Both the position numbers and the translations under genes were made by a program. A stretch of DNA of 64,000 bases, from assembly GCA_947462335.1 (NCBI GenBank), contig OX381721.1, forward strand, positions 6,262,001-6,326,000, given 5' to 3'. Numbering within the stretch: the first letter of the stretch is position 1; every line of letters begins with the position of its first letter. The notes beneath the pieces were generated by a model that was not told where the DNA came from, did no database searches, and was given only the letters and a program-made list of their open reading frames with translations. Positions 3,426 to 36,540 of the stretch are shown here, one piece after another. The DNA is from Harmothoe impar. Its lineage: Eukaryota; Annelida; Polychaeta; Phyllodocida; Polynoidae.

Positions 3426-3664
3426 CCATACCCATCATATAAAATTCAATTAAAAGACATCACAGATATCATGATGCAAAAACGTTTTGATAACTTGTAT
3501 CGAGTCTATCGATTAGTCGATTGGTCCTCATATAAAAGAGCATTAAAATGCATTTGTTTAGTAAGGGACACAGCATGTGCTTAGACTTTTAAGGTTTAAG
3601 TTCTAAGGTTTAAGCTTTTAAGGTTTAAGCTTTGAAACGCTATTGCACTCCCTCTATAAAAAAG

Positions 3665-4075
3665 TTAATTTATATTCATGAATTAAACTCTTATCGATCA
3701 TGATCTCTGCTAGTATTGATTATGTTGGAAGTTTGAATAATTAGCTCTAAATGGCTTGTTTCTTGAACAATATCAGGATGCCTCTTTTTTTAAAGTCTTT
3801 AGTAGACTAATTGCTCAGGCTTCATCTTGACTGATTCTGCTTCACTGCTGTAGTCAGGTTCCATACTCATTAAAACCCAGTAAACCATTCAGAGCGACTC
3901 ATCCTGGATTTATTTTTAGCCTGGCCATTTGTCGAATCTAATAATGGGATATTTGATACATTGCCTTGCGATATGAATATTTATTTTACCAAGCTGTATT
4001 ACAATAGTTTACAAGTTCTGTCCACAAAATGTGCACCTCTGTCATACGGCCAGCTCTGTCATTTGAAGCAAGCCA
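3665..4075 (-). repeat. diverged unit, block B copy 1
   Basis: Read on the minus strand, this contains in order AATATTCATAT, TATCAAAT, CCCATTATTAG, GGAACCTGACTACAGCAG, AAGATGAAGCCTGAGCAATT, AGTCTACTAAAG and GAGCTAATTATT. The same co-linear series occurs at 9.6-9.96 kb (minus) and at 27.3, 32.5, 35.1 and 36.1 kb (plus). Stops and length changes in every frame make it non-coding. It could be a regulatory or ncRNA unit, or a very old transposon. The homology is clear; the function is unknown. Confidence 0.7.
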
Positions 4076-4588
4076 TTTAGATGCAAGGTGGATAGTGTTG
4101 AAGGGAAAATTAATGAAGTATCGAATTTCTCATTTCTAAGAGGCCAAGATCATCAGAATGGATGGTTTGTTTGAGTATGCATTATTTTTCGTCGCCAATT
4201 CCCGAATACATGTTTATCTGTCAGTATATATATATGCATACTGATGTAATATGAAATTTACCTACCTTCAATGCCATTCAACTACACTGTAAAAAAATTC
4301 CCTTGAATTCACAGAGAAGCTCAGTTAAATTGGACAGTGCATCTCCGTTTTTTGGTTTACAGTGAAACACTGTAAATTACAGTGGCCCAAGAGGGCCAAA
4401 AAGTGATTTCGAAAAAAAAAGTGATCTTGAAAAAAAAAAAAAAAAAGATTTGAGAAAAGAATTTTTTTTTGAGAAATAAAAAAAAAAAATGGTTGGAAAA
4501 AAATCATTTTGACAAATTGCAAAAACATTAGTTTGAAAAAAAAAAAATTGAAAAAAAAATTGAGAATGGATGCTGTCAACTGTCAACT

Positions 4589-4829
4589 CTGTAAATTGAC
4601 AGTTGACAGCACCCATTTTCAATTCATTTTCAACAGTCCAGATGAAAAATGAAATTCCAAATGGTTGCTGTCAAGTGTCAACTTATTCAGAACAGCTTGT
4701 GACAGCCGAATTCTGTAAATTGACAGTTGACAGCACCCATTTTCAATTTTTTTTCAACAGTCCAGATGAAAAATGAAATTCCAAATGGTTGCTGGCAAGT
4801 GTTAGCTTATTCAGAACAGCTTGTGACAG
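4589..4829. repeat. 124-bp tandem duplication in foldback
   Basis: Two copies offset by exactly 124 bp, each starting CTGTAAATTGACAGTTGACA and ending CAGCTTGTGACAG, with few differences. They form the centre of the surrounding foldback element. Confidence 0.85.
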
Positions 4830-4867
4830 GTATCCTTTGGAGTGAGGCCAACTTCTACACAATACAC

Positions 4868-4922
4868 TGTCTGCCTGTCTGTCTGTCTGCCTGCCTGTCT
4901 GTGTGTTTGTATGTCTGTGTGC
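4868..4922. repeat. CTGT/CTGC microsatellite
   Basis: A degenerate CTGT tetranucleotide repeat. It produces cysteine-rich nonsense frames. Confidence 0.85.
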
Positions 4923-5944
4923 CTTTTCAAAATAAAAATTCAAATTTTTTTTTTATTCAAACAGAATTTTTTCAATTTGTCAAAATGTTTTTTTTTCAAA
5001 CAATTTTTGTTTTAAATTGCTCTCCCGAAAAATCTTTTTCTTTCCAAAAATCTTTTTTTCCCAATTTTTTTTTTTCTCAAAGATCACTTTTTTTTCGAAA
5101 TCACTTTTTGGCCCTCTTGGGCCACTGTAGTAAATCTTGTATATTTTACGGTGAAATTCTGTAATCCATTGCAGTGAAACTCCGTTATTTGTTTTACAGT
5201 GAACCTTTGTTTTCTTGGTAGTTCTATATTTTCCTATCAGGTCGCGGCTCAGTTCCTCAACAGAGTCTTCTGAAGGTTCTAGTTTCTAAAGCAGTATATA
5301 TATGCTAATATGTTGATATTTTTCAATATCTTAACTCACTATAAAGTAGATATACAGATGTAATTTAAATTTGAAATATTCACGATCAATAAAAGATTCA
5401 ATTGTGTGGGACACTAAGCAATACTTTTGATACAATATACACCCTTCTTGTGATATTATGAAAAATATATATTCTCAGCACTGTAGTTGGTGTTCTATAA
5501 CTACAATAATCATGAAGTCCGTGCACAAGATATATCATGGAACAAATATGGATATGGTTGATAATCAAAGTGAACTGTACACTGACATAAGCAGAGAATA
5601 AAACAGGAAAATTCCGTAAAAATTACGGTGACGTCTAAAAACGGAATTCCCTAAAATAAACAGTGACTTACAAAAACTGAATTCCCTTAAAAAGCCTTGG
5701 ATTCCCGGCTCCAATTGATGCCAGTGCTTCTCCATTTTTTCTACGGTATATTTTTTACAGTGTAGATGAGCACATAGTTATGAGTACAGCCATATGTAAA
5801 TTGATAAATGTTCGCTTCTATTCCTGAACAGAAAAAGCGTGAGCTTTTCTTTCAGTTATTTTTGATGTAAATCTGTTTTTTTGTCAAAGATCCTGTATAG
5901 CCACAGAATGCCTACAGAACAACGGTAATGTCTCTTCTACGGGT

Positions 5945-6075
5945 GACCAGTATAGTTCTTGTAAATAAAAAATGGAGTCAACGCTAAAGATTGTCAAATG
6001 GCCTTTGAGGTTCCTCCTTGAAATGTCACCAGGATAATAAATAGAGTGAAAATGGGGGAGTGTGACAGGCCCCAG
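5945..6075 (-). repeat. diverged unit, block A (minus)
   Basis: On the minus strand this reads ATTATCCTGGTGACATTTCA, then GTTGACTCCATTTTTTATTT. The same pairing occurs at 26.05 kb (GGTGACATTTCAAGGAG), at 40.6 kb (GTTGACACCATCTTTTATTC) and at 51.5 kb. Removing the 1.48-kb foldback at 4285-5762 brings this A block to within about 0.4 kb of block B copy 1. That is in the range of plus-strand A-B spacings. From about 6.1 to 7.3 kb I see only an ATA microsatellite at 6688-6700 and one GCATGATGCAT-like fragment near 7090. Confidence 0.55.
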
Positions 6076-7307
6076 AGGTCAGGTAAAGTGTGACCTTTAA
6101 GGAAGTAGCGGGCAACTGGTTGGAAATTCAGACAAATGTCCTTTTAGTGCCATTCTGCCAAGGTGCCCTGTCTTCTGAAGAGGCAGTGTTTGCTAAACCC
6201 TGCTGGACAGTGGCAATGTTCACTTAAAATGGCTCATGTCTGCAGAATGAGTGGTGTTGTATGACCTGATATCCTTCACATTCTGTGCTTTCCAAAACTG
6301 AAATAATTCTTCAAATATTCCAACTAGAACTGATATTACAACTTCTAGAATGCATGCTAATATGCTATGCAAATTAAAGCTTTTGTTATCATTTTCCTTT
6401 ATAAATGCTATTCTATTCTTTTCTAAATATTATCCAAAACTTTGATTTTGGTATCCAGTCCTGCAGAAATCTATCTGAAAATTTTTTAGCATGCAGAGGT
6501 CAGAATGTAAACTGAAAGACGTTGTGGGACAAGGGTTCCGTGTTCAGGATTATTAAAGAATATACACAGAATTTAACACCCTGTCATGCAGCCTGTGATG
6601 AAACTGCTCAGAATCTTAAAAGAGACATAATCATCATTGAGGTTTTTTAAGATTTTGCAGGCTGGCAGGTCTAATTCGATAATAATAATAATAATGTCTA
6701 GCCATTAACTCTTTTCCATCCTCTGTAATTTTAAGTTAATCACAAAGCAATACGTAAGATCGGCCATAATTATTTTCTCCCTCAGTCCTTTGCTAATGGA
6801 ACGACAATTACTTTTGACATTTCAAATACTCAGGCCGTATGATAATATCTTTTGCTCATCTGCATGAAGGTGTTGCACTGGTTTTAGAGGTTATAAAGAA
6901 AACTGCTTTGACGGATCACTCCTGAAGGTATACAAACATGTTCTCAATGGTGGACATTTGATTAGGGCTGGTCATGTGTTGCATCGCTTTTTAACTTCAC
7001 CCCTTTGTGATTGGACGAAAATCATATTAATAGCTTCATTGTGGTTTAACCCTGTACAATGCCTTAATGCATGATCCCCTTGGTCTTCATGATGCATGGA
7101 TGCAGTCCCATAAGGTCATGTAATCATAAACACGCCCAGAGCCATAGTTAGTATTATCCTACGGAGTCGGTATTTGTTATCAACGTACCCCCCCCCCCTC
7201 CACAAAAAAAGAAAACAAAAAAAAGCAAAAAAAACTCAGTTGATCAAACTGACCCCTTTTTTTGTATACATGTATATGTGCCACTCAACATGAGGCAGTA
7301 TGGCAGA

Positions 7308-7415: not shown

Positions 7416-7499
7416 TAAACCATAGCGCAAAAAGAGCGTATTACAAACAATTATCTTTACCTTTTTTTTTGTTTTTTTTCAAGGGGCGGTTACAAAATA

Positions 7500-8588: not shown

Positions 8589-8810
8589 GAGAACACTGCT
8601 CATGGCCCCAGTCTGCAGATATCTCCCCTCCCCCCCCCCCCCCCCCACTGTTTGTACAGCACTGTCTGACAACAAACTGACACCGAGTGTGCCACTGAGA
8701 TACCTGTGTGTCTACACACAGGTACATAGCCCGGGTGGTCCACCACAGCCTTGTCAATCAGGTTGTAGAAGGTCTAATGTCTGGTTCCCACTCACTGCTG
8801 GCAGTTCAAA
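8589..8810 (+). repeat. dispersed repeat R1, copy 4
   Basis: The best-preserved partner of the copy at 2.7 kb. It includes the poly-C run, CACTGTTTGTACAGCAC and CCACCACAGCCTTGTCAATC. The 181-codon plus frame across this region mixes R3, R1 and unique sequence and is not credible as a gene. Confidence 0.7.
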
Positions 8811-9604
8811 ATGCCATGGACAGTCTCTGCGAGAACTTTTTCATCCCGCAGGATATTTAGTCCTGTACATTCTCAATGCTGCAGGACCGGCTATATTTCT
8901 GAAGGACTGGATAGCCACATATGATGATCTATGCTTTTTATGTATAAACTGGTATCATCCACTGAAAATACATTATATTTGTAATCATTTATGGCCAAAT
9001 CAGGATAGATACATAGTTTTTCACAGTATGTTGACAAACATATTTCAGCTTTAGGAACCCTACTAAATTATTTTAGTTCAGAATATCTCAACATGTGACT
9101 GGACATTCATTCCTACTACACTTGTGATTCTACTGGATTGGTGCCATTTTATGTGGACATTGCCAGTGTCCTGCATGTTTTCGCAAAGACTGCATGGATG
9201 TGTAAGTTTGATGAGTGTCACTTGTGTCTTATCTAGGGGTCAATAATTGTAGGTATACTAACAAAACAAGGTGGGTGCAAATATATCAACACCTCGTTTG
9301 ATTATCTCAAAATTTGAAAAGAGAGGTTGAAAAATACATGTTTTCGTACATCCATGAAAGATTCGGACAACCCTCTCCTGTCGTTGAGATAGCATGGTGA
9401 GACTGTCTCTGAAGCTACGTGTATGCTAGTTGGATCCGGATTTAAAGTGCATCTCAACACTGAAAGCTTTGTTATAGTCTTGTTAGAGGCACTCACAACT
9501 TTTCAATGGTCTACATGATAAGAATCAAGATCAAATAAACCAAGTTTACCATAGCCTGCATTGTATTGTCTTAAATAGCCATTAATCTTCAAATTAGAAA
9601 GCTA

Positions 9605-9985
9605 TGCATCTTCTAATAAACCTCTATTAGTCATATAATCATCAACATGGGTCTGCTCGCCAATATCAATTATATAAGGAAGTCTGAATAATTAGCTCTT
9701 GATAGCATGTTTCTTATGAATCCCCAGTACCAGATTTAATTCAATTATCTCCTTTATCAGAGCAGTTGCTCAGGCTTCGTCTTAAAAAAAATCTTCTTCA
9801 CTGCTGTAATCAGGTTTCATGCTTATTAATCATTCCCTGGGAGTCATTAAAGTCGGCGGCTCAAAATGAATTTATTTCTAACTGCCTATTTTCTGACTTT
9901 AACAATGGGGGCATTTAATAAACTGCCAGCAAATATGAATGTATTTAGAACCAACAAATGCACAACGTTTTTTCTGTAGCAAAAT
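9605..9985 (-). repeat. diverged unit, block B copy 2
   Basis: The minus strand gives ATTCATATTTGCTGGCAGTT, CCCATTGTTAAAGTCAG, TATGAA/GCATGAAACCTGATTACA, GCAGTGAAGAAGA, AAGCCTGAGCAA, GATAAAGGAGATAATTGAAT and GAGCTAATTATTCAGACTTC. This is the full series of block B cores and one of the best copies. No frame stays open across copies. Confidence 0.75.
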
Positions 9986-10069
9986 TTAGCACTTTTTAAA
10001 TCACATTATTATGTTCCATATTCCCAACTTCTCACTCACTATCCACCTAATCACTTATCATACCATTTA

Positions 10070-18614: not shown

Positions 18615-18685
18615 GGGGATGTAGCTCAGTGGTAGAGCATAGGCCCATCGGTCTAGAGGTCTTGGGTTTGAATCCCGCTTTCTCC
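18615..18685 (+). repeat. tRNA-derived SINE-like unit
   Basis: GGGGATGTAGCTCAGTGGTA resembles a tRNA 5' half with an intact A box (18622-18632). GGGTTTGAATCCC (18664-18676) is a good B box. The acceptor ends GGGGATG and TTTCTCC pair imperfectly, and the anticodon arm is irregular, so a functional tRNA is unlikely. The antisense frame encodes the protein-like string RDSNPRPLDR, a familiar artefact of tRNA-type sequence. It could be a SINE head or a decayed tRNA-Ala-like gene. Confidence 0.6.
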
Positions 18686-19629: not shown

Positions 19630-21650
19630 GTCTTGTTTATAAGGTCAGGGACGAAAGATCGTGACTAGAACATGATGTATGCCTGAGGAATTAAATCCCA
19701 CTGTTGTAGTTCTTGAATCAGAACTAAAGCAAGGTGGATCGGGTTGCGTCTGTAACTAGGACTTATATTTATAAATTGAAGATCAAGTCTATGGGTGTAA
19801 TCGTTTATCGTGTGTCCTTGTGTTTTATAATTGAGTAGGCAATTTTTGACATTAATCTTGTTTTCAACTTGCCCTTATGAATGATTATAATCTAAGAATT
19901 TCTCTATCTGGTCATGGTACGGGTAACCATTCACAGTTACCTAAATTGACAGCAAGAGTCTCTATGACAATTCTATGCAGATACAGATAATGTATATTGT
20001 ATTTTGTAGAAAATATTTTTTTTAAAGAATTAGGATAAAAATACATCATTTATGTTTAGAAACATTGTAATATTCCCTCCATGTGAACAAGGGCAGTGGA
20101 TGAAAGGTTGTGGCCAGAACATGACCCGCCTGAAGAAGTCAGTCCCACTGCTGTTTTTCAGTTATCAGAACTACTGCAAACAAATGGCAATTGAAACGCA
20201 TGTAGCTTTAGTCAGGGTCATGATGTTGGTTCTTGTAAGGCATATCGTGTCTCCTTTTGTTCATTATCCAGGAAATAATTTGTAACAAAAAACAGGTATA
20301 ATATTCCGCATGATACCGGCAGTATAAAGGTTTCAAAGCTTAGCCTTTCTTTATCTGGTCATGATCTGGATACCCTTCAAAAATGGCTTTTTGAAAATAT
20401 TCATAAAGTATTCGGCGTCTTCTGATAAGGCATATTGTGTTTACTATCCAGAAGATAATAGTTTTTAAGAAATAGGAATAAGAAAACATCATGTATGTTT
20501 GAGTACATGTAAGATCCCCTCTTCTTGTAAAAGGTTACGGGATAAAAAGGTTGTGGGCCGAACACGAGTCGGGAGTTGAATCTAATCCTAATGTTGTTTT
20601 TTGTTCATCTGAACTAAAACAAGGTGACTCTGGCTGCCCCTGCACCTGAGACGAGAAGGAATTTGAGAGCATGTATATCAGTGGAGCAGTGACTAGGAAA
20701 AGGGGGGGGGGGCAGGGGGGCCCAGGAGCCCCCGGATCACAGAGCTGTTAGGGCCTGCATATGTTTGGGTTCCCCCGAATGTATCAAGACCCTAATATGA
20801 TACACAAAATTCGCAATCCTGTCCTCTCCAACAGTGGGTAAAATGGGGGCGGGCCAGAGGGGGCTGAGCCCTCAGTAAGAGCTAAAGCTCAAATACTTCT
20901 TTTCTATACAATCCGATATAAGCATGTATATGATAGATCATTCATAAAAGTTGATATTTAAAGTTGTTTGGGTTGGGGCACCCTGCCCCCCCCCCCAATG
21001 AAGATTTGCTTCCTACGCCTCTGTGTAGTGTGGATTCTGACAAGGCATGTAATTTTTTTATCACCCACATGGTAATTAGTAACAGAAATGAGGTCTCCAA
21101 TTTACCACGATACTCAGCATCATGAATGATTAAAAGCTGAGCCTTGATTTTATGCTCATGATCAGCATACGCATGCAAAGTTATACCTGAGATAATAGCA
21201 ATTAAAGAGATTATGTGGCAGTGTAAGGTAGATTCTGATATCGCATATTGTATCCCTTTTGTGTTTCATTTTGTATATTATCTGGAGGATAATTTGTTCT
21301 AATGAAATAGGGAAAAAAAATACACCTTGTTTTTTAGAAATATTGTAAGATCCCCTCCTGATGTACGAGGTCAGTTTGCAAGAGCCGTGTGGATCCTGAC
21401 AAGACACATCAAGGGTTTTTGTTTCATAATGGAGAAGGTAATTTGTAACAAAAACTTGCCATAATACCAGCATCATGAGCGATCAGAACCTGAGCGTTTC
21501 ATTATTATGTCATAATCCTGAAGAACAGTTTAAATCTGTGATAAGGACAATGGTGTAAAGTGGATTCTGACGAGGTGTATCATGAGCCCTTTCGTTTATG
21601 ATCAAAAACAAAAGGTTTGTAACGGGACTTGGAATAGAGGTTGCTTTGTT
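19630..21650 (+). repeat. diverged array, period near 440 bp
   Basis: Units starting at about 19.64, 20.08 and 20.52 kb share GGTTGTGGCC-like, GAACATGA, CCCACTG.TGTT and CAGAACTA motifs. Linked segments recur at 19.90, 20.35, 21.10 and 21.50 kb (TTTATCTGGTCATGATC) and at 20.24, 20.42, 21.03, 21.24 and 21.57 kb (TTCTGA.AAGGCAT). A foldback insertion occupies 20.69-21.03 kb. No frame is conserved. It is an old tandem array with heavy decay. Confidence 0.6.
20690..21026 (+). mobile_element. element with AGAGGCGTAGGAAGC end, copy 1
   Basis: It ends GAAGATTTGCTTCCTACGCC and begins with a G-rich run. GAGCTAAAGCTCAAATACTT and ATGATAGATCATTCATAA lie inside. The inverted copy at 26.83-27.13 kb and a shorter one at 23.5-23.7 kb share the same end and the 'AAATAC' inner segment. 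Confidence 0.65.
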
Positions 21651-22385: not shown

Positions 22386-22575
22386 ACAACCAGAGAGTCA
22401 GTGTACTGCAGTGGTACACATCCTTTTCTGTGCACACAACGGTCAAATGTGTTGCCTCCCGGGAAGGAAAATTTGCCTATATCAAATATCTAATTGCAAA
22501 AGTCAGCAAGGAGGCGGTGTAAAAATAAGCTCAATTCAAGATGTACAGCTCTTAGTGACTCTTGCTTCATAACGT
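22386..22575 (+). repeat. diverged unit, block B copy 3 (partial)
   Basis: It carries TGTACTGCAGTGGTACACAT, TATATCAAATATC, TTGCAAAAGTCAGCAAGG and GGTGTAAAAATAAGCTC in block B order, then stops where the 22.6-kb foldback begins. Copy 5 stops in the same way at a related insertion. Confidence 0.65.
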
Positions 22576-22597
22576 ACAGTGTTTATTGAGTGCTTTT

Positions 22598-22965
22598 TCA
22601 TGGTGGATACGACAACCACTAGGCTTAAGTACTGGAATTCCCGTATCACATGCCCCCCTTATTGGATACAGTGTTCCTGTATCACATGGCCTGTGACATC
22701 ATCATTTGTTCAAATTATTATGAACATTTATATGCAATTGAAAGTGTATTAAAGAGTAAAAACCATGAAATAAAGGCAAAGGCCCATAGCCAGAGGATAA
22801 TTGGTATTGTTACTCCCTTGGTTGGGCTGGGGCTGCATCCCACTCAGCCTGTGGCTTTGTGGGACATGGCCCCAGCCCCACCTTGGGGGCAACAATACCA
22901 AAATGTCCTCTGGCCATGGGCTTCTGTCTATATATCTGATAACAGCAATGGACAAGATTTAGTAG
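22598..22965. mobile_element. foldback with GC-rich hairpin core, copy 1
   Basis: The first part matches 30.86 kb: CATGGTGGATAC, GGCTTAAGTACT, TGTATCACATGGCCT and GACATCATCATTTG. The second part (22782-22921) is a long hairpin with arms GCCCATAGCCAGAGGATAAT/ATGTCCTCTGGCCATGGGC and a core GGGGCTGCATCCCACTCAGC / GGCTTTGTGGGA. It is non-coding. Confidence 0.8.
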
Positions 22966-23499
22966 CTGGTCTGATAAATGATATATGATGAAGTTAACCT
23001 GATTCTCTGGATTCACAGGAATTGATATATCTAGAGCTATACAGAATTATCATTGACTTGCAGAGTTGTATTGATGATCCGTGTCATACAACCTTTTTTC
23101 TAATTGTTCATACATGTAATATGATTACACACACGCTTATAAACATGATGCATATAACCTGAACACACCCAACTTTAGGAATGCATACATGTTTGTTTCC
23201 AAACACCAGTTGATCATATGGCCAAGTCGGGGAATATAACAATTTCATGAATAAAAGTGCATATATCAAGAAACAAATTAAAAGATTTAAATATCCACAA
23301 CAAACTGTCAAGTTGACTTCAGGTTAGTAACCTTTTTTTTTAGGACATGTACATCGAAGAAGAGGGGGGTTTGGTGAACTTATATGCTCATAAATAGATA
23401 GGCATGCCGTCTGTTATTTGCAATAAAAAAAACATACTCAATAATGTAATTTTGGGTCTCCTTACACGATTTGATTTTGTGCATCATTAATCTCATGCC

Positions 23500-24212: not shown

Positions 24213-24860
24213 ACATGCGATAGTCAACATGTGTATTGAGACAACCTCAATGGTGAGCCTCTTTCTGTGTGTATCTATAGCACTCCGTTGATAAGCTGCA
24301 ACACATCATGGCCCACGGATAAAGCTGTTTATTTCAACTATCTAAATATGTTAGATAATGTGTATATCATATAATTGATATCCTGTTACTTGTAATTTAG
24401 ACATGCTAGGAATCCTTACCTTGCCCCAGTATCGGCACTTTCTGACAGCAACAAGATATTCTGTATTGAATTTCACGGAAATGGAAATTTTATTCAGAAA
24501 TTTCATCCCGGGATGAAATATAGATGGCTTAGGTTTCATATTGCATATGCATATTGTGTTTTTTCATTGGAGCCTGTAGCAGATGGGATGTCAATGTTGA
24601 AAACTCGTCTTAGTCCCACGGTTAAATGTCTATAGAAAATCTATTAAAAAGGTACTAGCAGTTTGTTTCTGCAATGAAGAGAAGAACTCGCAAAATGATA
24701 AAAGAAAAGTAGAGATATACTTTCAGAAGATTGATCCTGAAAACAATGTATTGTACAGTTTTAAAAATGTGTTAGATCAGGTGACATTACTAAGCTCCCT
24801 GTTGCTTGGCGAATTATCAAAGGCAGAATGAGGGTACATAGGAATTAATATTACTCAATG

Positions 24861-24972
24861 CTCGAATGGCCACTCAATTTGCATCCTTACATGGACTACA
24901 ATGCTAGAAATATATGTATATATTTCTTGCATTGTAGTCCATATAAGGATGCAAATTAAGTGGCAATTTGAG
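24861..24972. ncRNA. 54-bp-arm hairpin, miRNA-like or foldback
   Basis: Positions 24861-24914 and 24919-24972 are reverse complements at 49 of 54 positions, around a TGTA loop. One of the five differences would be a G-U pair in RNA. The stem includes TTTGCATCCTTA and ATGGACTACAATGC. The stem length and the scattered mismatches fit a hairpin precursor RNA. The near-symmetry and short loop fit a small foldback transposon equally well. No expression evidence is available. Confidence 0.4.
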
Positions 24973-25964
24973 TATACATACATATACATTTATTCAAATC
25001 TTTATAAATTTACCCCCATTTATCTTTGTTATAAGATGACTGAGTTCCCAAAGGTTCCGATAATAAAAGAATAGAAATATTTTTTGATTGATTCATATAT
25101 TTTATCATTTCAACTGTGAGCCCTGAATCTTATTATTCTAAAATGCTCACTAAAACCTCCTTTACTCACCTGCAAAATCGAGTACATAAATTGGGAGAAT
25201 AATGACGTTTTCCCATTCATTCTCATTGTTAAGGCATTTTTGTGTGGATGGCAACTAATGTATCAAGCTCATATAATCCCCAAAAAAGTAGAAAAAAATC
25301 AGAAAAACATCACAACCTTCCTACCACTAGCATTTGTCCTGAAAATTTGGAAAGATAAGGTAGCTGTTCATTAATAATGATGGATCAAAGGCCTTAAGTG
25401 CCCTTAAACTGGACATAATGCGTTTGGGCATAACAAACCTTTATCATGTGCCCAAGAGATGATGCACCTGTAAACATCTAGCTTCAAAGTCTTGGCTTCT
25501 TGTTTCTTCTGCTGGGAAAGCAATATTGTCTAGGTCCTTGTCTAGTATTAGAATAGTTTAAAAGGTTTTGGTGCCATTAACACTCAACTGAGACAGAGTG
25601 AGACTATGACTTTATAAAATAGTTGTTTAGAGCTTCACACAAAGAATACAAATGAAGGGAACTTGCAAATGGCTAGATACATCAGCCATATATCAAAGTA
25701 TTGCGCCTATGGAATGCAACATAGTGTAAATACATCTTAGAAGTTGTTATCGCTATTTTCACCTTTTAATCAAAGACAAATATAAAGAGACGAAGAATAT
25801 TTTAAGAATCTCGCATTAGTTAGCTTTAATTCTTTATATTTTGTCATACATACTGGTGTACGCCTGCCCGAACCTGCTCAATGATGTTTGCTGGCAGCTT
25901 AGAAAACAACTGTAGTAGAAAGTAATATAAGAAATGTGATGGCAGGAACATATTCATCTAACTT

Positions 25965-26120
25965 CCTTTACAGCAGCAGTTTGCCCTACACTTCCACAAT
26001 TGTTACAATTGACCGTACTGCAGGGAGTTATCATGCTCCACCATTCTCACCCTGTTAATCATTCTGGTGACATTTCAAGGAGTCTGACACTTCCTCTTTT
26101 ATTCGCAAGAGCTAAGCTAG
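25965..26120 (+). repeat. diverged unit, block A
   Basis: TTTACAGCAGCAGTTTGCCC, TTCTGGTGACATTTCAAGGA and CTCTTTTATTCGC align with the A blocks at 40.56, 31.79 and 29.66 kb and, reversed, at 5.95 kb. The preceding 24.98-25.96 kb shows no recognisable feature. Confidence 0.6.
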
Positions 26121-26826
26121 TGAACCATTGGCTTTAAAAGAAAAAGATTTCAATGGAGTAGTGATTGTGTATTCAAGACTACATTGGGGTTCCTTTCCAT
26201 CATATCCAAAGCCATGCAGGCAACTATAAAGGGTATTTGTGCAGTAGTAATAAGTCTTCAGGAAACTGTCAGCCTTAAGTAAGAAATACATGAACATCTT
26301 CATTGTATTCTGAACATGAGTGTGACATAGGGTTGTGCAAGTGAATCAGCAATGGCTACAATTGTGTTTCCCCTTCAAGTGCTAATTAGTATAAGAGTGT
26401 GCATCTAGGCGCGAGAAGATAGGGCCCCCCAAGTGAGTATGGAGAGAACCAGGAGGGAACTAGTTCCCCATTTTGGTACACAAAATATACACCACATCTC
26501 AAATGAGAAGACACAGTATGCATATTGTGTTTATAGGATAAGAGCCTTTAAAAAGGACTATGCATAAATTTTGAGTAATAAGTAACTGCACAAGAAGAAA
26601 TGAAAACACAATGGAAGATCTGCTGTTTTTACAGAGTGAGAGGAAAGGTTAGAATGATTTAGCGATCAAGGATTGGCAAGAGACAGAGAATGAAATATAC
26701 AAAGAATATTTAATGGGGACTTACTTGACTTCATTAATAGATATTTAGCTATTTTCATGAACTATTGTTTCATCTGATTGAACAGCATTGTTTGGAGGCA
26801 ATTTTGCTATTCATAACATATCAGAA

Positions 26827-27269: not shown

Positions 27270-27705
27270 CAAACAGCTCCGGCTGTACCGCTGTTGTACA
27301 CATTCTCGCAGTACTACCATAGATCGTGTTACCTGCGGGTGAAAATAAATATTCATCTCGGCTAACATTATATCAAATGACCCATTGTTGGAGCCTGAAA
27401 TAGGCAGGGTAAAATACATTTAGTTTGAGATAAACAGCTCAAATGTCTCCCATTGAATGGTTTAATGCATTTTAATAACAATGAAACCTGATTACAGCAT
27501 TTGAGAAGAATCATTTAAGATGAAGCCTGAGCAATTAGTCTAATAAAGGAAATAATTGAATTAAACCTGATAGTTTGACTATTCAGAAGAAAAGAGCTAT
27601 TTAGAACTAATTATTTAGATCGCCAAAGATAAATGATACTAACACGCAGTGCAATGTTGATGACAATCATCAATAAAGGTTTTTGATTGTCATACTAGAC
27701 ATCTA
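27270..27705 (+). repeat. diverged unit, block B copy 4 (long)
   Basis: The longest plus-strand copy. Its cores include TGTACCGCTGTTGTACACAT, AAATAAATATTCAT, TATATCAAATGACCCATTGT, ATGAAACCTGATTACAGCA, GAAGAATCATTTAAGATGAA, GCCTGAGCAATTAGTCTAAT and AATAATTGAATTAAACCTGA. A tail, CTAATTATTTAGA to ATCAATAAAGG, matches the minus-strand copies at 3.7 and 9.6 kb. There are stops in all frames. Confidence 0.8.
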
Positions 27706-28071
27706 GTGCAAAGCCTTCTGATTTGATGATCGATACTGTTTGAAGACAGAATTCACTCTGTGATAAGGCTCTAATGAGGCTGATATGTTTAAGCTTCCTT
27801 TACACTTTTGTCGGATCTTGATATGATATTTTCTCTTCATCCCATGTGTTGACGTTAACATGGGACTTTGTGCAAGAAGCTGTGTCTCATGAGATTGTAA
27901 CAGTAACGTCTTGGACTGGGTGTAGTCTTTGAGCAGGTGTAGTCTTTGACCGGGTGTAGATCGGGTGTAGACCAGCAAGCTCCAGAACCGCTGAAATGGG
28001 TGCTATGTACACAGAAATGCCAGGAAAATATTAATGGGTATAACACTATATCTTACAAATTTCCCTGCATT

Positions 28072-28140
28072 TCTTGTCAGTAGCCCTTTGCCCTCTACTT
28101 TTCCAGAGGTTATGATCCATCTTACCGTTTTTAGGTATAT
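28072..28140 (+). repeat. diverged unit, block A fragment
   Basis: CAGTAGCCCTTTGCCCTCTA, CTTTTCCAGAGGTTATGATC and ACCGTTTTTAGG match 29.72-29.78 kb closely. No matching B block follows before the next A. Confidence 0.5.
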
Positions 28141-28589: not shown

Positions 28590-29139
28590 TAGGGGGGGGG
28601 GGGGTTAGAAGGGGCTGGGGATAGGTGGGAAGGGCCCTAAGATAGGTTAGGATAAGGGCCGCCTCCTACCACCATGGACCTCTGCCCCTACTACCATTTG
28701 CCAGCTCAACCCTTCCCCTCTGCCCACTCCCTCTAACCGCTGCTGCCCACTCCCCCCCCCTCCAAACCCCTAGATTAGCCTATATGAGGGCTTTCACACG
28801 GGGTAGGTCCTGTAAAAATATTCCCTAAGGGGCTGAGATGATGCCTTTCACAGGAGAAAGATCAGTGAAAGAAAACCTCTATCACACGACCTCATCTCCT
28901 GTGAAAAGATGTGAATGGTGTGCGGCTTATATGCATGAATGAAGCAATGGCAAGTCGCAATTCGAGCACCTCTTGTATAGTTGGAGTTAAAACAAGCCTC
29001 CCTAATATATTGGTCAATGTCAGTTCTGTGTTCCCTGCTAGTTGACATTTTACGCTGGGCATTCAATTTGGTCTTACTTTGAAACAATAATCAAGCATTC
29101 ATTGTAATCCCCTTTTAATGAACAAAGGGTGAAATTAAG

Positions 29140-29260
29140 CATCCTGACAAAACACACATGGCTACAATCAAGTCAGACCAATTGAAACAATGCCTGGATA
29201 ATTTCAGCTGTCGGAGTCGGCTGTTGGAAAGGTCCAATTGAATGTGCAAGCTTGGTTTAA
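29140..29260 (+). repeat. diverged unit, block C-like
   Basis: AATCAAGTCAGACCAATTGA and TCAGCTGTC-type motifs resemble TTGAATCAGGTTAAACCAAT at 36.45 kb and its partner at 35.56 kb. The match is weak. Confidence 0.35.
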
Positions 29261-29654
29261 TATCCGAATATTGAATTATTCTGAATACGACGGTTCTAAT
29301 TTACAGTAATATGTGAAGGAAGTCCCAATTTAAATATGTGACAGTTAAACAAGCTTCCAAATAACGATGGCCATACCTTGATTGTCATGTTTTATGTATC
29401 TTGCAGGCTTTCCCGGTAGTTTTGGAATGAAGTGAAAACTGTTTGATATCCACTGGGCATACCGGGCCTATATTAAAAGATACATTAGGAAATCAAATGT
29501 ATGCCAGAAAAGGCAGTAATAAGGCCCCCCCCCCCGAATCTACTACTGTTTAAAAATGTGTATCGCTTCCAAGGTGGGAATTAAATGTTTAATTGTGCAT
29601 TGACAAGATGATAGAAAGAAGACAGCCTGTTAGGTAGAAAAAAGGTATTTCATG

Positions 29655-29875
29655 TTGGACAGTAGGCAGGTCACTGTACAACTGCAAAATGTCACCCTAA
29701 GGTCATTTCCACCGGCTTTTTGTCCTCTTCCTTTCCAGAGGTTACGATCGATTCCACCTTTTGGGGCTGTCACGTTTTTCCGTTTTTTTCTGCACTTATC
29801 ATTCCAGTGACCTTTTGACACCCTTTACCATTGACACCATATTTAATTCATACACTGCCATTTCTTATAGTGCCA
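29655..29875 (+). repeat. diverged unit, block A
   Basis: GGCAGGTCACTGTA, AAAATGTCAC, TTTCCAGAGGTTACGATC and ATTGACACCATATTTAATTC align with 31.79-31.95 kb and 28.07 kb. A B block (copy 5) follows about 0.8 kb downstream. Confidence 0.6.
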
Positions 29876-30679
29876 AGAGCTATGTGAGGACGCTCAAATG
29901 TCAGAATATCCTGAGGAATTTGAAGCATAGGCTAATTCAATGTCAAACAAAGTCTGTGACATACAAGCAGAGAAAGCACTTTCCCTGAGTGCGTAAGTAA
30001 ACAACAGAAAACCAAGATAAGAAGAGAAGGAAAGCTGCTGTTAAAACAAAATAAACTGGTTGTGATAAGACATTTGCACTTTCTCAACGACAGAATCGGA
30101 TCAAGGTCCGTGCACTTTTAATAATAGACAGTAAAAATACAATTGTATAGAACGTTTTCTCATGATGCCTTACTAATGAGGATTCTGTTTTCATAATATC
30201 CAGATTGCCATGTTCTGAATAGCGGTATGAATCAAATGGTTCCTAACCTTTTTTTTGATACCATGTCACCCTGCACACTGATTTACAAATGATATGCGTC
30301 ATTGTCTCCAAACACAGTGAATAATTTGGATAGGATCCTTCTGAATTACATTTCTAGCCATGGAGTGTTTTGGGATGTATTTTACTCGTTCCTAATTGTT
30401 TCATATGGTAGGAGAAGTAGTCACAAGTAAAAGGCGAATGAGAAACAGACCTGCTCTAACACACAATATCACTGGCAAGAAAACCAATACTTTTTTTTAA
30501 AATGTGATTTATTCCGGTAATTAATTACATAAGTAATTTCAATGGTTCGGCGCATTGCCGTTCTTCCATCATGTCCTTGACTTTTCAGAAATATGCAATT
30601 TGAAAATGATCATCAGTTTTATCTGCAGGCAAGGTCTCTCAATTTGCTGGATGGATGCACGCTTTGACATTTGAATTTC

Positions 30680-30785
30680 CTTGCCTCTTGATGAAAATAA
30701 AAGTTCATACTGTCCAGCAGTATATCAAATGACCCATTGTAAAAGTCAGCAACTCAGTCGGGTAAAAGCAACTCAGTCTCAAAAA
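30680..30785 (+). repeat. diverged unit, block B copy 5 (interrupted)
   Basis: TTGCCTCTTGATGAAAATAA, TATATCAAATGACCCATTGT and AAAAGTCAGCAACTC match copies 6 and 8. The copy ends abruptly where the foldback arm ACATAGACAAATGCC begins. Confidence 0.75.
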
Positions 30786-31240
30786 GTACATAGACAAATG
30801 CCAAGGCCTATTGATACAGTCTCTGACGTATTCTAAAAGTTGGGATGGGCGCCTCATTTCATGGTGGATACAATGATCATTAGGCTTAAGTACTAGAAAT
30901 CCCGTATCCAATGCCCCCCATGGGATACAATGTTCCTGTATCACATGGCCTATGACATCATCATTTGTTCAAATTCTTATGGCCATTTATATGCAATTTA
31001 ACATGTTTTTAAGGTTAAAAAACATGGAATAAAGGCAAAGGCCCATGGTCAGAGAATTTTTGGTATCGTTCCCCCCTCGGTGGGGCTGGGGCGCATCCCA
31101 CTCAGCCTGCGGCTTCGTGGGATACTGCCCCAGTCCCACGTCGGGGGGAACGATACCAAAATATCCTCTGGCCATGGGTTTTTGTCTATATATCCCATGA
31201 AGACGCAGGTATCAGAGCAGTATTGATGAAGTTTCGGTAG
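30786..31240. mobile_element. composite GC-rich foldback, copy 2
   Basis: The outer left arm (ACATAGACAAATGCC, ATTGATAC.GTCTCTG) and the outer right arm (ATCAGAGCAGTATTGATGAA) match the 46.3-kb hairpin. The inside matches the 22.6-kb element, with hairpin arms at about 31040-31103 and 31112-31177 and the same GGGGCTGGGGC...CCCACTCAGCC core. It looks like nested or recombined relatives. Confidence 0.75.
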
Positions 31241-31784: not shown

Positions 31785-31950
31785 GTAGGCAGGTCACTGT
31801 AATGCAGTGAAATGTCACAGCAGCCATTTGCACTCTACCCCCTTAAAGGTTACCTTTAGGGCTCTCACCCTCCTGTTTTCTCCCTACTGGTGTGGTTTCA
31901 AGGAAGAGTGCTTTGACCACTGACACTATTTCTAATTCACAATGCATAAT
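31785..31950 (+). repeat. diverged unit, block A
   Basis: GGCAGGTCACTGTAATGCAG, CACAGCAGCCATTTGCACTC and ACTGACACTATTTCTAATTC define this copy. It precedes block B copy 6 by about 0.5 kb, the most compact A-B pair. Confidence 0.65.
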
Positions 31951-32397
31951 ATGACCACTTGAGTAGTTCCGTCAAAAGAACACAGTGACATGTAGAGTTC
32001 TATTTAATAGTCATCAAACTCGTGCCACATGATTTCTCCCTGTCATACGCTCTGTCCATTTGTGAACTTTTGGAAACATTGAGAACAGGAGAAGAAAATC
32101 TACAAAGAACAAAGAAATGGGTGGAGATGACCCCTTTGCACATTCATCAATCAATAAAAGGGACAGGTTAAATGTCAGGAGAATTACAGAGACAAAAAGT
32201 GGCAACAAACCAATTTGTTCCACTTTAATATTCCATATCAGATAAGTCTTTACTTTCAAATAGTCATGCTAATACTGTTAACATTATTGGCGATAATTAT
32301 AAGCAGTTATTGACAGCCATTTATTCATATGTTAACTGCTACATCTTCATGCAAGGTTCCATGTCATTTCACACAAACGCAGCTGGCTGTACTGCTC

Positions 32398-32864
32398 AAA
32401 GTGCTAAATCCAATTCCATCTTCATTTACAAATATTAAAAATGAAAACGCAGCTGTTTGTACTGCAGTAGTACACATCTTGCTCTGTCCTCTTTCTTGCT
32501 CGCCTGTAAAAATGGATACATGTTGTCAGGCAGTATATCAAATGACCCTTTATAAAAGTCAGCAAGTTGGCAAGGTAAAAATAATCTCAGTTTCAGATTA
32601 ACAGCTCAAATCATTCCTGCAAGATGATTTACTTTTAATGACTGTGAAACCTGATTATGAAAGCGGAGGAGAATCACTTAAGAAGCCGAAGCAATCATTC
32701 CAATGAACGAGATAATGAAATAAGACCTCATTGTGTGTGTTCACAAGAAGCCTGACCTATCTAGACTAATATACAAAGGGAGCAACAAACATGTATGATG
32801 TTGAAGGTTTCAAAGTGCTTAATCCAATTCCGTCTTCATGTACAAATATTAAAAATGAAAGGGC
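32398..32864 (+). repeat. diverged unit, block B copy 6 with flanking repeats
   Basis: The B cores run from TTTGTACTGCAGTAGTACAC through TATATCAAATGACCC, AAAAGTCAGCAAG, GTGAAACCTGATTATGAAAG and GGAGAATCACTTAAGAAG to GAGATAATGAAATAAGACCT. A 52-bp near-identical direct repeat flanks it at 32398 and 32812; each starts AAAGTGCT and contains TACAAATATTAAAAATGAAA. Confidence 0.75.
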
Positions 32865-32960
32865 CAGACAAAACACTTGCCTCTAATAGAGTCAAACAAA
32901 TTGAAGTCTCCTTTGGGAACGTGAGGCTCAATTTGTCAGATTCTGCTGCTTCTAGAACTC
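32865..32960 (+). repeat. diverged unit, block C
   Basis: AGTCAAACAAATTGAAGTCT, GAGGCTCAATTTGTCAGATT and CTGCTG align with 35.56 and 36.45 kb at the same distance downstream of B. Confidence 0.55.
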
Positions 32961-33018
32961 ATTTCAAACCAGCAAATGCAGTTTGCTTGGCAATTATCAA
33001 AATGGACTTACGGCCCCC

Positions 33019-33246: not shown

Positions 33247-34224
33247 AGCCACGTCATGTGCTGTTGAATTTCAGCAATAAGAAGTTTAAAACCTAGAGTT
33301 CTTGGAAGCATTGTACTAATATTTCTTCTTAATTGAGTACTTCTTTTGGCTGCCTCACATTGATACATGTGTAGTTGAATAGCCTGATTCATCAAATGGA
33401 GTAGTCAAGATTATTGAAACCCAGGGCATAGCCAATAGTAGTATAGGGGCACTAATATTATCCAGGTCCGTCATCGAACACCTATTGTATAGTTTGCATG
33501 GCTGGAACCAGGGGGCACCCCGATCGGAGGCAAACAGTATAAATACTGCCCTCACCTCCTTGCTCCTGCAGACCTCTTCAGGTCTCTGACCCTGACTGAC
33601 CACCCGAAAGTACATATACATCGAATGACCAGAATGAATCAGAACTCATATTTAGCTTGATAGTCCAGGTTGGGACTTTAATAAAAACCCTTTCTTCGCA
33701 TCTCACTAAGAATACTGCGGTTCATGTTCCTATTTCTCGAATCTCATAAAGACAAACTCTACAGTAGTGTGTAGCACTGTTAAGTTCATTGGCGATCTTA
33801 AAACAAACCAGTTACTCAGTTCACGCCTAATGGCTTATAATCTTAAAAGCCCATTGCATATGGCACATTGTCAGCTCTTAAGAATCATCCCTCAGGATTC
33901 AGCCATTGTACGAATGGAATTATGTGGATATGTTGAAGGTAGTAAGATAAGGACGCTGATATTGCTGAATGTGAAGCTAATGAATTAGAGGTATCCACTG
34001 TTACTACACTAAGATATTACTACAATAATAACAAAGCAGTACTGGGTGCTTTCCACTGTTTGATTTAGATATCCATTGTTCTTTCCTCTTCTCCAAGACC
34101 TAGCCGATTTGAACATCAATTTTCATTTCTTATTCTAGATCTGAAACTAAAAGGGCGGCTAAAGAAAGCTTTGGTAATTGCATTGACCATCACAGTTCCA
34201 TTCATCAGACTACCAGACACGACC

Positions 34225-34330
34225 TAATTAGTTAAGAAATTTGAAACTATTTCCAATTCTGGTAGGAAGCACAGTAGGTTGATCTTGTAAACAGCTAGTT
34301 TTAGCGACATTTGTGTAGGCACCAGCGCTT
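34225..34330 (+). repeat. duplicated block E, copy 1
   Basis: GAAACTATTTCCAATTCTGG, GAAGCACAGT and ATCTTGTAAACAGCTAGT align with 37.43-37.51 kb. It may be a further block of the diverged unit. Confidence 0.55.
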
Positions 34331-34712: not shown

Positions 34713-34714
34713 TT

Positions 34715-34860
34715 GCAGGAGGCTCTACATTTGTGCATCAATGCGACCCTAAACACTGTGAGAAATATTACTCGCAAGGGCTGCATTCTTGTATCATGGC
34801 GACTAAGGGCCTGATGCATGGAAGCGTTATGCTGTCCTCAAATAGTTAGGAGCCACATCA
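34715..34860. repeat. GCATGATGCAT-family copy
   Basis: GTGCATCAATGCGACCCTAA and AAGGGCTGCATTCTTGTATC belong to the family clustered at 17.1-18 kb. Confidence 0.6.
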
Positions 34861-35029
34861 CAATATAGATGGACTTTGCAACACAGATATAATAGAGTAC
34901 AGAAAAGAGTAAAGATAAGATGTGCTCCACAACAAAGTAGGATACTTTTAGATAGTCACCGACACCATTATTGGCAATAACAAAAAGCGGTTCTCATTTC
35001 TTTGACATTTCAGAAGTGCTTCATCTTGT

Positions 35030-35345
35030 TGTGCCGCACACAGCAGGGTCACAGCAGTGGTACACATCCCTCCCTCTTCACTGGGTTGCTTCTTGATCAA
35101 AATAAATACTCATATTTGCCTACAGTATATTGAATTACCCGTTTTAAAAGTCAGCATGTGGGTAGTGTAAGATTAAACTTTGTTTCAAATCAAATCATTG
35201 CTGCAAAAATATTTACTTTGAATGAGTATGAAACCTGATAATCAATGCTGAGTAGAATAATTTGAGAAGCTGGAGCAATGACTTTCACAAAAAGAGATTT
35301 AGAATGAAGTATACAGTTGAAATTGACAGTTAGGAACAAATACAT
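35030..35345 (+). repeat. diverged unit, block B copy 7
   Basis: GTGGTACACATCCCTCCCT, AATACTCATATTTGCC, AGTATATTGAATTACCC, AAAAGTCAGCATG, TGAGTATGAAACCTGATAAT and GAAGCTGGAGCAATGACTTT follow the B order. CATTTCTTTGACATTTCAGA just upstream matches copy 8. Copies 7 and 8 sit 965 bp apart and are each followed by a C block. Confidence 0.75.
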
Positions 35346-35544
35346 ATGCTGTAGGCCGGTTTAATTATGTTTATATTCCTCAGCATGTATGGCAAATTAC
35401 AGCAGTGCATTTTTATTTAGCGTAAACCTTAAATTGGGTTAATATAATATGCAGGATATTTAAAGTTCAACTGTTAGAACTGACAGTCAGGCATCTTATG
35501 AAATCTCCTTTCAATTGAGAACTAGTAAAACCAAATTACCAAAC

Positions 35545-35660
35545 AAAAAACACTGCACTTGAATCAGCTCAAACCAATTAAACTTCATTCACTGAACTCC
35601 AGGCTTAATTTATCAGATAATGCTGTTAAAACAACCTTGTCGAACCTGCAACCCTAGTGT
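35545..35660 (+). repeat. diverged unit, block C
   Basis: TTGAATCAGCTCAAACCAAT, TAAACTTCATTCACTGAA, CTCCAGGCTTAATTTATCAG and AACAACCTTGTCGAACCTGC align closely with 36.44-36.54 kb. Confidence 0.75.
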
Positions 35661-35999
35661 ATAAATAGACATTATCAAAACTTGAAACCATTTCATGGTG
35701 CAAAGGGGCAGAGGTAGTGAGTTAAAACCTAAAATTGACAGAAGCCTTACAAGTGTGGGAGCAGTCATGCAGTGCTCCAGAAGTAACCGGAAATCACCAT
35801 TTAAAGAGAGACAGAGCGATGATAAGAGTCAGAAAGGGATAACATCTGGTCCATCGCACAACAGTTTATAGTGATTATCAGACATTCACTGACATTATAT
35901 TGGCTATAATAGCAGTCAGTTCCAATTTCATTGACATTTCAGAAATGCTTAATCAGATACCTCTAATGGAGTTCTGCATTCAGACAAGATACACACAAG

Positions 36000-36315
36000 G
36001 CAGGCTGTAAAGATGTGGTACACATCCCTCCCTGTTTACTTTGTTGCCTCTTGAGGAAAATGAATATTCATATTTGCAGTCAGTATATCAAATGACCCGT
36101 TGTAAAAGTCAGCAAAGTTGGAAAGGTGAAAATGAACTCTGTTTCAGATGAACAGTTCAAATTATTCTCGTGGAATGATTGAGTTTTAATGTGTGTCAAA
36201 CCTGATTATGAAAGCAGAGGAGAACCACTTTAGAACCGGAAGCAGTCATCTTGATAAATGAGATACTGAAATCAAAACCTTATTCACAACAAACCTACTT
36301 ATTTAGACTAAGGTA
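36000..36315 (+). repeat. diverged unit, block B copy 8
   Basis: GTGGTACACATCCCTCCCTG, GAATATTCATATTTGCAGTC, AGTATATCAAATGACCCGTT, GTAAAAGTCAGCAAAG, CAAACCTGATTATGAAAGCA and GAGAACCACTTTAGAACCGG give a near-consensus copy. None of the frames stays open across it. Confidence 0.8.
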
Positions 36316-36429
36316 CAAAATGAGAGTTGACAGTTTTGCTGTTAGGATATTTTAATCACTTCGTATTATTCATCCTGTATGGTTTAATAGAGCATTGCAT
36401 TGCTATTGAGCATAACGAAGCCATAAATT

Positions 36430-36540
36430 TACTTGATAGAAGACATCTAACTTGAATCAGGTTAAACCAATTAAACTTCATTTGGTGAATTTCAGGCTCA
36501 ATTTATCTACTGCTTAAACAACCTATTTGGACCTGCAAGT
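36430..36540 (+). repeat. diverged unit, block C
   Basis: TTGAATCAGGTTAAACCAAT, TAAACTTCATTTGGTGAA and AACAACCTATTTGGACCTGC match the preceding C block. 36.54-37.33 kb shows nothing recognisable. Confidence 0.75.

Follow-up and report, generated by a model that had tools for sequence, protein, structure and literature searches.

A probable single-locus, two-armed cluster of old and younger non-coding duplications in Harmothoe impar

Introduction

In the human genome, segmental duplication has given rise to families of non-coding elements (PMC13333887), and the microRNA cluster in intron 10 of Sfmbt2 in mouse and rat consists of units at one locus that have spread over 55–65 kb through rounds of tandem duplication (PMC3212979). 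The locus described here, in Harmothoe impar, would resemble the human families in that its non-coding families appear to stem from duplicated genomic segments and not from transposition. The human families were delimited by sequence plus open chromatin and have in part been tested for activity, whereas the present family is characterized by sequence; its copies – unlike the human ones – lie at one locus, in two arms, and are strongly diverged (PMC13333887). With the Sfmbt2 cluster the locus shares non-coding repeat units that are unique to one place in the genome. The Sfmbt2 units bear microRNA hairpins and B1 retrotransposons and run head to tail, whereas in H. impar a consistent hairpin was not found and the units form two opposite arms (PMC3212979). 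We consider it highly probable that non-coding duplications, some old and some younger, restricted to this one locus, built the cluster, and that in it a unit of three blocks (A-B-C) was multiplied in tandem and came to lie in two arms.

Copies of blocks A, B and C

Positions refer to the window, the whole 64-kb stretch of contig OX381721.1 that was analyzed; negative values denote contig to the left of it. Leave-one-out profiles recover eight B, eight A and five C copies in the window. The eight B copies counted in the initial annotation are each found by a profile of the other seven (E 1.4e-14 to 9e-62), all eight of its A positions are found likewise (E 1e-8 to 4.5e-23), and so are its three C copies at 32.9, 35.55 and 36.43 kb; two further C copies, at 1.79–1.96 kb (minus strand) and 29.13–29.28 kb, emerge from the profile. 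For B, A and C the best E values in the reversed window are 8.8, 3.4 and 3.5, respectively. Some B leave-one-out runs give an extra row beyond the eight copies (E down to 5.6e-7); with the full B profile the sole extra row is 22936–23063, the second half of the 22.4-kb copy.

1794..1956, minus strand: block C copy, left arm (profile E 7.6e-36; leave-one-out 1.3e-13)
3686..4038, minus strand: block B copy, left arm (profile E 3.8e-75; leave-one-out 9.8e-32; matched in genome searches with two other B copies)
5960..6145, minus strand: block A copy, left arm (profile E 4.3e-38; matched in the genome search with A)
6905..6948, minus strand: weak, uncertain block C remnant, left arm, outside the copy count (profile E 0.18 only)
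9619..9988, minus strand: block B copy, left arm, closest to the center (profile E 3.8e-78; as genome query matches this locus only)
22411..22592, plus strand: block B copy, right arm, first half, with a MITE-like element next to it (profile E 6.9e-33)
22596..22936, plus strand: palindromic MITE-like insertion within B, foreign to the array (85% identical to 30857–31194)
22936..23063, plus strand: second half of the 22.4-kb B copy, past the inserted element (profile E 8.4e-5; 5.2e-19 with an enlarged profile)
25942..26107, plus strand: block A copy, right arm (profile E 2.2e-38; as genome query matches this locus only)
27294..27681, plus strand: block B copy, right arm (profile E 6e-86; as genome query matches this locus only)
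28055..28135, plus strand: partial block A copy, right arm (profile E 4e-14)
29125..29275, plus strand: block C copy, right arm (profile E 1.5e-35)
29681..29852, plus strand: block A copy, right arm (profile E 9.2e-34)
30654..30783, plus strand: block B copy, right arm, disrupted by a MITE-like insertion (profile E 9e-30)
30786..31194, plus strand: MITE-like insertion within B, foreign to the array; left end judged by eye, left part matching the same family
31814..31942, plus strand: block A copy, right arm (profile E 2.7e-27)
32468..32784, plus strand: block B copy, right arm (profile E 2.5e-85; as genome query matches this locus only)
32849..33003, plus strand: block C copy, right arm (profile E 2.3e-38)
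35057..35336, plus strand: block B copy, right arm (profile E 1.8e-63)
35515..35681, plus strand: block C copy, right arm (profile E 3e-34; matched in the genome search with C)
36015..36332, plus strand: block B copy, right arm (profile E 6.8e-84)
36408..36566, plus strand: block C copy, right arm (profile E 6.1e-37; as genome query matches this locus only)
40541..40688, plus strand: block A copy, right arm (profile E 1.8e-27)
51375..51496, plus strand: block A copy, right arm (profile E 3.6e-20)
52524..52629, plus strand: block A copy, right arm, near-duplicate of 51375..51496 (profile E 2.8e-15; pair bootstrap 100)

A census of 264 kb of the contig gives 13 A, 9 B and 6 C copies, spanning about -19 to +53 kb, with an A profile that, like the one for the RNA-fold test, still included a segment at 1.4 kb: this early-profile candidate for a ninth A copy was discarded, since the leave-one-out profile failed to find it. 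The stretch beside it, 1227–1398, matches distant DNA. The extent first assigned to the array, 3660..36540, does lie inside it, but the limits do not hold, since copies continue beyond both ends.

Genome searches with three B queries and one each of A, C and D (a further block, below) were run against 1.512 Gb, and every row falls in C21:6.234-6.310 Mb. Rows, the query included, number five, seven and three for the B copies at 32.4, 27.3 and 9.6 kb, three for A, two for C and 11 for D. Such searches miss diverged copies – the three B queries (same order) found 4, 5 and 2 of the 8 other B copies at the locus, the A query 2/12 and the C query 1/5 of the other copies there – so that strongly diverged copies elsewhere in the genome could have been missed. 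In five distant 10-kb stretches A and B gave no row at E<1 and C gave one at E 0.47; other repeats of the window are present in 3/5 of these stretches. That the unit is regionally multiplied, as first proposed, is well supported: the genome-wide DNA searches place the blocks here only.

Orientation and duplication history

All A, B and C copies below 10 kb (11/11) lie on the minus strand and all those above 22 kb (17/17) on the plus strand. Seven of the 28 copies are outside the window and were absent from profile building, yet they obey the strand rule, which had been noted beforehand. Of the set order and spacing previously attributed to the blocks, the order A-B-C stands, the blocks alternating with some members missing; a fixed spacing does not. 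The distance from A to B is 523–946 bp (four cases, with recognized insertions excluded from two), and that from B to C is 64–178 bp in the right arm vs. 1,729 bp in the left.

Block D follows the same rule of orientation: the rows of its genome search are minus in 6/6 cases on the left and plus in 5/5 on the right. Its copies in the window are the following.

43037..43980, plus strand: block D, right arm, full copy (11 genome-search rows, every one at this locus; alignment)
45397..45934, plus strand: further, shorter block D copies, right arm (89% and 81% rows of the genome search)
47603..47696, plus strand: partial block D copy, short, right arm (83% row of the genome search)

Beyond the window, at -15.6 to -14.6 kb, an inverted copy matches the full one at 89–91% identity. 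Across the arms the closest D copies thus reach 89–91% vs. 70.9–75.6% for rows of A, B and C: D being far more identical than the other blocks, the arms have no one common age.

Younger clades are found within the right arm, with bootstrap values among the window copies of 100 for B and of 95 and 99 for C; support for the right-arm B clade is 75 once copies of the left flank are included. In some unit pairs homology runs past the blocks (34819–35683 with 35756–36568; 33937–34314 with 37096–37511), and the spacer after B aligns between two left units, a comparison outside the 40 scored spacer pairs described below. Whole-unit duplication is directly shown for a few neighbors only, because most inter-block spacers have no detectable homology. 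A single, clean duplication that turned the entire array into a palindrome is unsupported: the order of partners in the left and right arms was compared for mirror symmetry, and the test failed (Spearman 0.27, permutation P 0.78). The first map of inverted matches hinted at a center near 15.5 kb.

These patterns would be accommodated by the following history. An ancestral unit – very roughly 2 kb long – would have carried A, B and C in order and undergone repeated tandem duplication, with segment D as a fourth member of the same cluster. An inversion or inverted duplication would have produced two arms facing outward from a center between about 10 and 22 kb, after which the right arm would have expanded again locally (30.7–36.6 kb), part of D may later have been copied between the arms or held similar by gene conversion, and transposons would have inserted into single units. 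Unequal crossing-over and template switching are the presumed motors, and weak or past constraint may be the cause of A, B and C outlasting the intervening DNA.

Blocks and the DNA between them

Compatible with this duplication history, to which it would add a candidate function, is the idea that short cis-regulatory elements or lncRNA exons make up the blocks, that they were multiplied as a group and that selection preserved them as the spacers diverged freely. Block pairs align at z>4 in 52/59 cases (B 28/28, C 9/10, A 15/21) vs. 4/40 pairs of inter-block spacers (36/40 have z of 4 or less), although blocks were picked because they align. The spacer comparison was redone with stricter scoring, lax scoring being uninformative for most spacers. 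Simulated spacers were detected in 23/24 cases at a divergence of 0.45, in 17/24 at 0.6 and in 3/48 at a divergence of at least 0.8: against these rates, the 4/40 real pairs suggest that within a given unit pair the spacers are mostly older than the blocks. Where spacers do align, the blocks are the more identical in 7/7 unit pairs, significantly so in three (U6-U8, 79% vs. 65%, P printed as 0.0; m1-m2, P 0.03; m1-U4, P 0.04) but not in the other four (U7-U8, P 0.26; U5-U6, 0.68; m2-U4, 0.90; U4-U8, 0.23). Since A, B and C have persisted where most of the intervening DNA has not, the alignments hint at weak or past constraint on the blocks as wholes.

The initial annotation described six short cores that at least eight B copies share in order and that stay recognizable while the text between them diverged. 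The cores are in fact missing from some copies. Counted with 2 to 5 mismatches tolerated, they number 13, 10, 21, 8, 6 and 6 in the window, the expectation from ten Markov-resampled windows being 7.5, 3.9, 11.2, 2.2, 0.5 and 4.1; nor, in simulation, do cores in B stand clearly above uniform-rate decay. For central B a gamma rate model was not preferred (alpha 3.7, BIC worse by 2.4) and the window variance lies within that of uniform-rate simulations (25/80 and 12/80 as large); on the high side are the number of invariant columns (0/80 and 6/80) and the longest invariant run (3/80 and 1/80). Clustering of rates over the whole of B, edges included (variance and autocorrelation reached in 0/180 simulations), is gone on central B.

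The lack of clear rate variation within central B, by gamma model and window variance, counts against cis-regulatory elements or lncRNA exons, as does the failure to find a consistent RNA fold, and we regard this explanation as unlikely. Quite improbable, too, is a two-armed regulatory or ncRNA locus of 28 A, B and C copies and about nine D places over ~80 kb, facing outward from one shared center, which selection would have kept until most of the intervening DNA was past recognition, and in which later exchange between the arms would hold a part, D, at 89–91% identity. The earlier suggestion of an enhancer or ncRNA array finds no direct support, the blocks being without a consistent RNA structure, an Rfam family, a coding signal or clear conservation of the cores within B, though weak or past constraint on the blocks as wholes may have acted. 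If the blocks of the duplication cluster are functional, they would provide a natural series of paralogous non-coding units of differing ages, in which regulatory loss and retention could be traced unit by unit; if they are not, they would provide a well-resolved example of slow decay in a duplication-prone region.

Coding potential and RNA structure

Ordered blocks with fast-changing DNA between them are reminiscent of exons and introns, and the units might be decayed tandem copies of a protein-coding gene, with the blocks as old exons. The absence of a shared protein, already noted from the letters, is however upheld: A, B and C carry no coding signal. Their mismatches show no three-base periodicity (P 0.89, 0.96 and 0.63, respectively), of the 102 gaps in the B alignment 21 have a length divisible by three, which is no excess, and mismatches in the D alignment are nearly even across the three phases. 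No Pfam match was found among the longer open frames (20 in the window, 10 in the flanks), and the best 70 of 511 rows of a protein-level self-comparison were all other repeats. Decayed gene copies are thus very unlikely.

Tandem non-coding units at one locus are known from small-RNA clusters such as that of Sfmbt2 (PMC3212979), and the blocks might similarly carry microRNAs or snoRNAs. In two C copies (1.8 and 32.8 kb) a stretch of 90 bases reaches fold z values of -3.1 and -3.5; in the remaining three z is only -1.2 to -2.3. Against this, consensus folding gave no structure for A or B and for C a weak one, on one strand only (-1.9 vs. -0.14, sd 0.39). At gathering thresholds Rfam found nothing in the window except a tRNA at 18.6 kb, and its weak matches within 22.3–37.7 kb all lie outside A, B and C. 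Neither folding nor Rfam gave a hairpin or family match conserved across units, and we hold the small-RNA explanation to be extremely improbable.

Dispersed repeats and the transposon question

The blocks are like the MITE-like and dispersed families of the same window in being multi-copy and non-coding; those families, however, occur genome-wide and in both orientations, whereas A, B, C and D were found here only. A first look with the MITE-like element 30857–31194 gave 1,824 candidate places genome-wide; of the 40 that were scored one is the element itself and the rest are 96–97% identical. With the block rows confined to the locus and this element as control, the array is therefore, as far as the searches indicate, probably a cluster at one locus, with two arms built by tandem and inverted duplication, and not an old transposon family. 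That A, B and C come from a very old transposon family whose members landed here repeatedly – the other possibility raised at the outset, consistent with multi-copy, diverged, non-coding blocks in a window where dispersed repeats are frequent – is contradicted by their restriction to this locus (vs. 1,824 candidates), by the complete segregation of orientation by arm and by the kept order, and we give it almost no credence. A diverged multi-copy non-coding family that resembles an ancient transposon can, it would seem, be purely local, and strand segregation together with genome-wide restriction separates such a local array from a transposon family.

Dispersed repeats are common in the window; two B copies, at 22.4 and 30.7 kb, are each split by a MITE-like element.

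Genome searches match blocks A, B and C at one locus

Self-comparison of the window revealed B-type similarity among eight places. Each of these eight B copies was retrieved by a profile built from the other seven (E 1.4e-14 or better), and leave-one-out profiles likewise retrieved all eight block A positions named in the initial annotation and five copies of block C in the window; with the window reversed, the same profiles gave nothing below E 3.4. The six short ordered motifs (cores) claimed for B are indeed over-represented, but are not universal among copies. A ninth A candidate at 1.4 kb was dropped: it was not retrieved when left out, and the adjoining 1227-1398 also matches distant DNA.

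The window corresponds to C21:6262001-6326000 of the 1.51-Gb assembly. Profile scans of 100 kb on each side (two runs, at thresholds of E 0.1 and E 0.01) detected seven further copies, all on the minus strand; the outer limits of the detected copies are -19.1 kb on the left and +52.6 kb on the right.

Copies of blocks A, B and C by arm (kb in window coordinates; negative values lie to the left of the window)
Right arm, outward, 22-30 kb, plus strand: B 22.4, A 25.9, B 27.3, A 28.1, C 29.1, A 29.7
Right arm, outward, 30-37 kb, plus strand: B 30.7, A 31.8, B 32.5, C 32.8, B 35.1, C 35.5, B 36.0, C 36.4
Right arm, outward, 40-53 kb, plus strand: A 40.5, A 51.4, A 52.5
Left arm within the window, outward, minus strand: B 10.0, A 6.1, B 4.0, C 1.9
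Left arm, minus strand, between B 10.0 and A 6.1: weak C at 6.9, excluded from counts
Left flank, minus strand, A copies by profile match: -1.0, -7.5, -7.9, -11.0, -13.1
Left flank, minus strand, C copy by profile match: -6.6
Left flank, minus strand, B copy by profile match: -18.7

Over window and flanks together, left copies are minus in 11 of 11 cases and right copies plus in 17 of 17: independent insertions would be an unexpected source of strands so sorted by arm. Genome-wide DNA searches with three B queries (32440-32800, 27270-27700 and 9614-9992) returned 5, 7 and 3 rows, respectively, and those with A (25930-26130) and C (36400-36580) returned 3 and 2, in every case including the query and all at the A/B/C locus; the first stage of this search is not fully sensitive, finding 4/8, 5/8 and 2/8 of the other B copies at the locus (in the same order of queries), 2/12 of the other A copies and 1/5 of the other C copies. 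As a dispersed-repeat control, the MITE-like sequence at 30857-31194 gave 1,824 candidates, of which the 40 scored were itself and 39 at 96-97% on many contigs. Window repeats are present in three of five distant 10-kb stretches; in none of the five did A or B reach E<1, and C yielded a single row, at E 0.47. An exact 19-base core has a single genome occurrence, which carries little weight alone, the family being so diverged. The proposal of a very old transposon family is contradicted by matches only at the locus (at the sensitivity of these searches), strands sorted by arm and the abundance of the dispersed control. The alternative raised with it, regional multiplication, is upheld by the confinement of all A, B and C rows to the locus, in a search that misses diverged copies.

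Coding and RNA readings

The blocks show no period-three signal, and 20 open frames of the window and 10 of the flanks gave no Pfam match; as far as tested, the array is not coding. Of six further flank open frames, four are LINE parts. LINE-type open frames that carry reverse transcriptase and endonuclease domains are present on either side (L007 2911-7846; L018 1984-5019).

Folding and Rfam comparison gave no evident structured RNA for the array, although two of the five C copies contain a 90-base stretch of fold z near -3. Elsewhere in the window, a tRNA-like sequence at 18615-18686 (plus strand; 38.7 bits, above the Rfam gathering score, with no ARAGORN call) could represent either a tRNA or the head of a SINE. 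A 118-bp palindrome at 24858-24975 (88% self-complementary) bears a weak likeness, below Rfam cut-offs, to several miRNA precursors. Copies of a MITE-like palindromic element lie at 30786-31194, 22596-22936 and 46272-46587, and such copies interrupt two separate B units.

Constraint in blocks and spacers

Across the six full copies, the central part of B did not favour a gamma rate model (alpha 3.7; BIC 2.4 worse), and its conservation by window fell within uniform-rate simulations. The count of invariant columns was nevertheless on the high side (equalled or exceeded in 0 and 6 of 80 simulations), as was the length of the longest run of them (3 and 1 of 80). Whole B looked clustered (0/180 simulations as variable), with the gamma model again not preferred; this clustering counts for less, since homology fades towards the ends of B.

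Blocks and spacers differ more strongly than positions within B: among block pairs 52/59 exceeded a z of 4, vs 4/40 spacer pairs; simulated spacers were detected in 23/24 cases at divergence 0.45, 17/24 at 0.6 and 3/48 at 0.8 or more. Blocks were more identical than alignable adjoining spacers in all seven unit pairs, a contrast to be read with the blocks having been chosen for alignability; the difference was significant in three (U6-U8; m1-m2, p 0.03; m1-U4, p 0.04) and not in four (U7-U8, p 0.26; U5-U6, 0.68; m2-U4, 0.90; U4-U8, 0.23). These sequence comparisons are fairly read as constraint, either weak or in the past, or as the selective survival of segments; they fall short of proving function.

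Duplication history

Trees of window copies contain a younger right-arm B clade (30.7-36.0; bootstrap 100), a younger right-arm C clade (32.9-36.4; 95 and 99) and a pairing of A 51.4 with A 52.5 (100). With left-flank copies included, support was 75 for the B clade and 97 and 93 for C, and A nodes were mostly weak. Homology clearly extends past the blocks between some right-arm neighbours (34819-35683 with 35756-36568; 32305-33018 with 35870-36581; 33937-34314 with 37096-37511) and in the left arm (2685-3992 with 8592-9954). The idea that one mirror duplication produced the entire array is not supported: best cross-arm partners lack mirror order (Spearman 0.27, p 0.78). The array probably grew by repeated rounds of tandem duplication, together with one or more inversions or inverted duplications, followed by copying or conversion between arms.

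The array is similar to other clusters of non-coding DNA formed by local duplication. In human, non-coding element families are known to arise by segmental duplication (PMC13333887); the A/B/C array is comparable with these at the level of sequence. In the Sfmbt2 miRNA cluster (PMC3212979), tandem rounds filled an intron with locus-specific units; those units have hairpins, whereas the A/B/C array has no consistent hairpin of that sort.

Multi-kb tandem duplications lie on both sides of the array, at -87 to -53 kb (L003-L006; 84-97% identity) and 97-115 kb (L015-L017; 91-94%), so that the region looks duplication-prone. Close to the array centre, 19361-21636 is an old tandem repeat whose period is near 450 bp and whose copies share about 58-62% identity. 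At 50084-50961 a 291-bp unit occurs three times head to tail, at about 97-99% identity. The last A copy is flanked by direct repeats of 354 bp (52105-52458 and 52852-53205), 747 bp apart and 100% identical, which point either to a duplication of very recent date or to an artefact of assembly.

A fourth block, D

A map of inverted matches between the arms drew attention to 43.0-45.7 kb. Searched genome-wide, D (43037-43980) gave 11 rows, one weak (E 0.03), all at the A/B/C locus (C21:6.234 to 6.310 Mb); left rows are minus in 6/6 cases and right rows plus in 5/5. Adjoining D, 44.4-45.7 kb matches the left arm at 86% identity. Mismatches by codon phase were 0.178, 0.189 and 0.184 in the first D-region alignment (non-matching tail included) and 0.142, 0.156 and 0.116 in the second; with these phase values and frequent one-base indels, neither alignment looks coding. 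The closest arm-to-arm D rows are 89 and 91% identical, and the four remaining left rows are short and 69-81% identical. The 89-91% part may be younger than the A/B/C copies, exchanged between arms, or more conserved.
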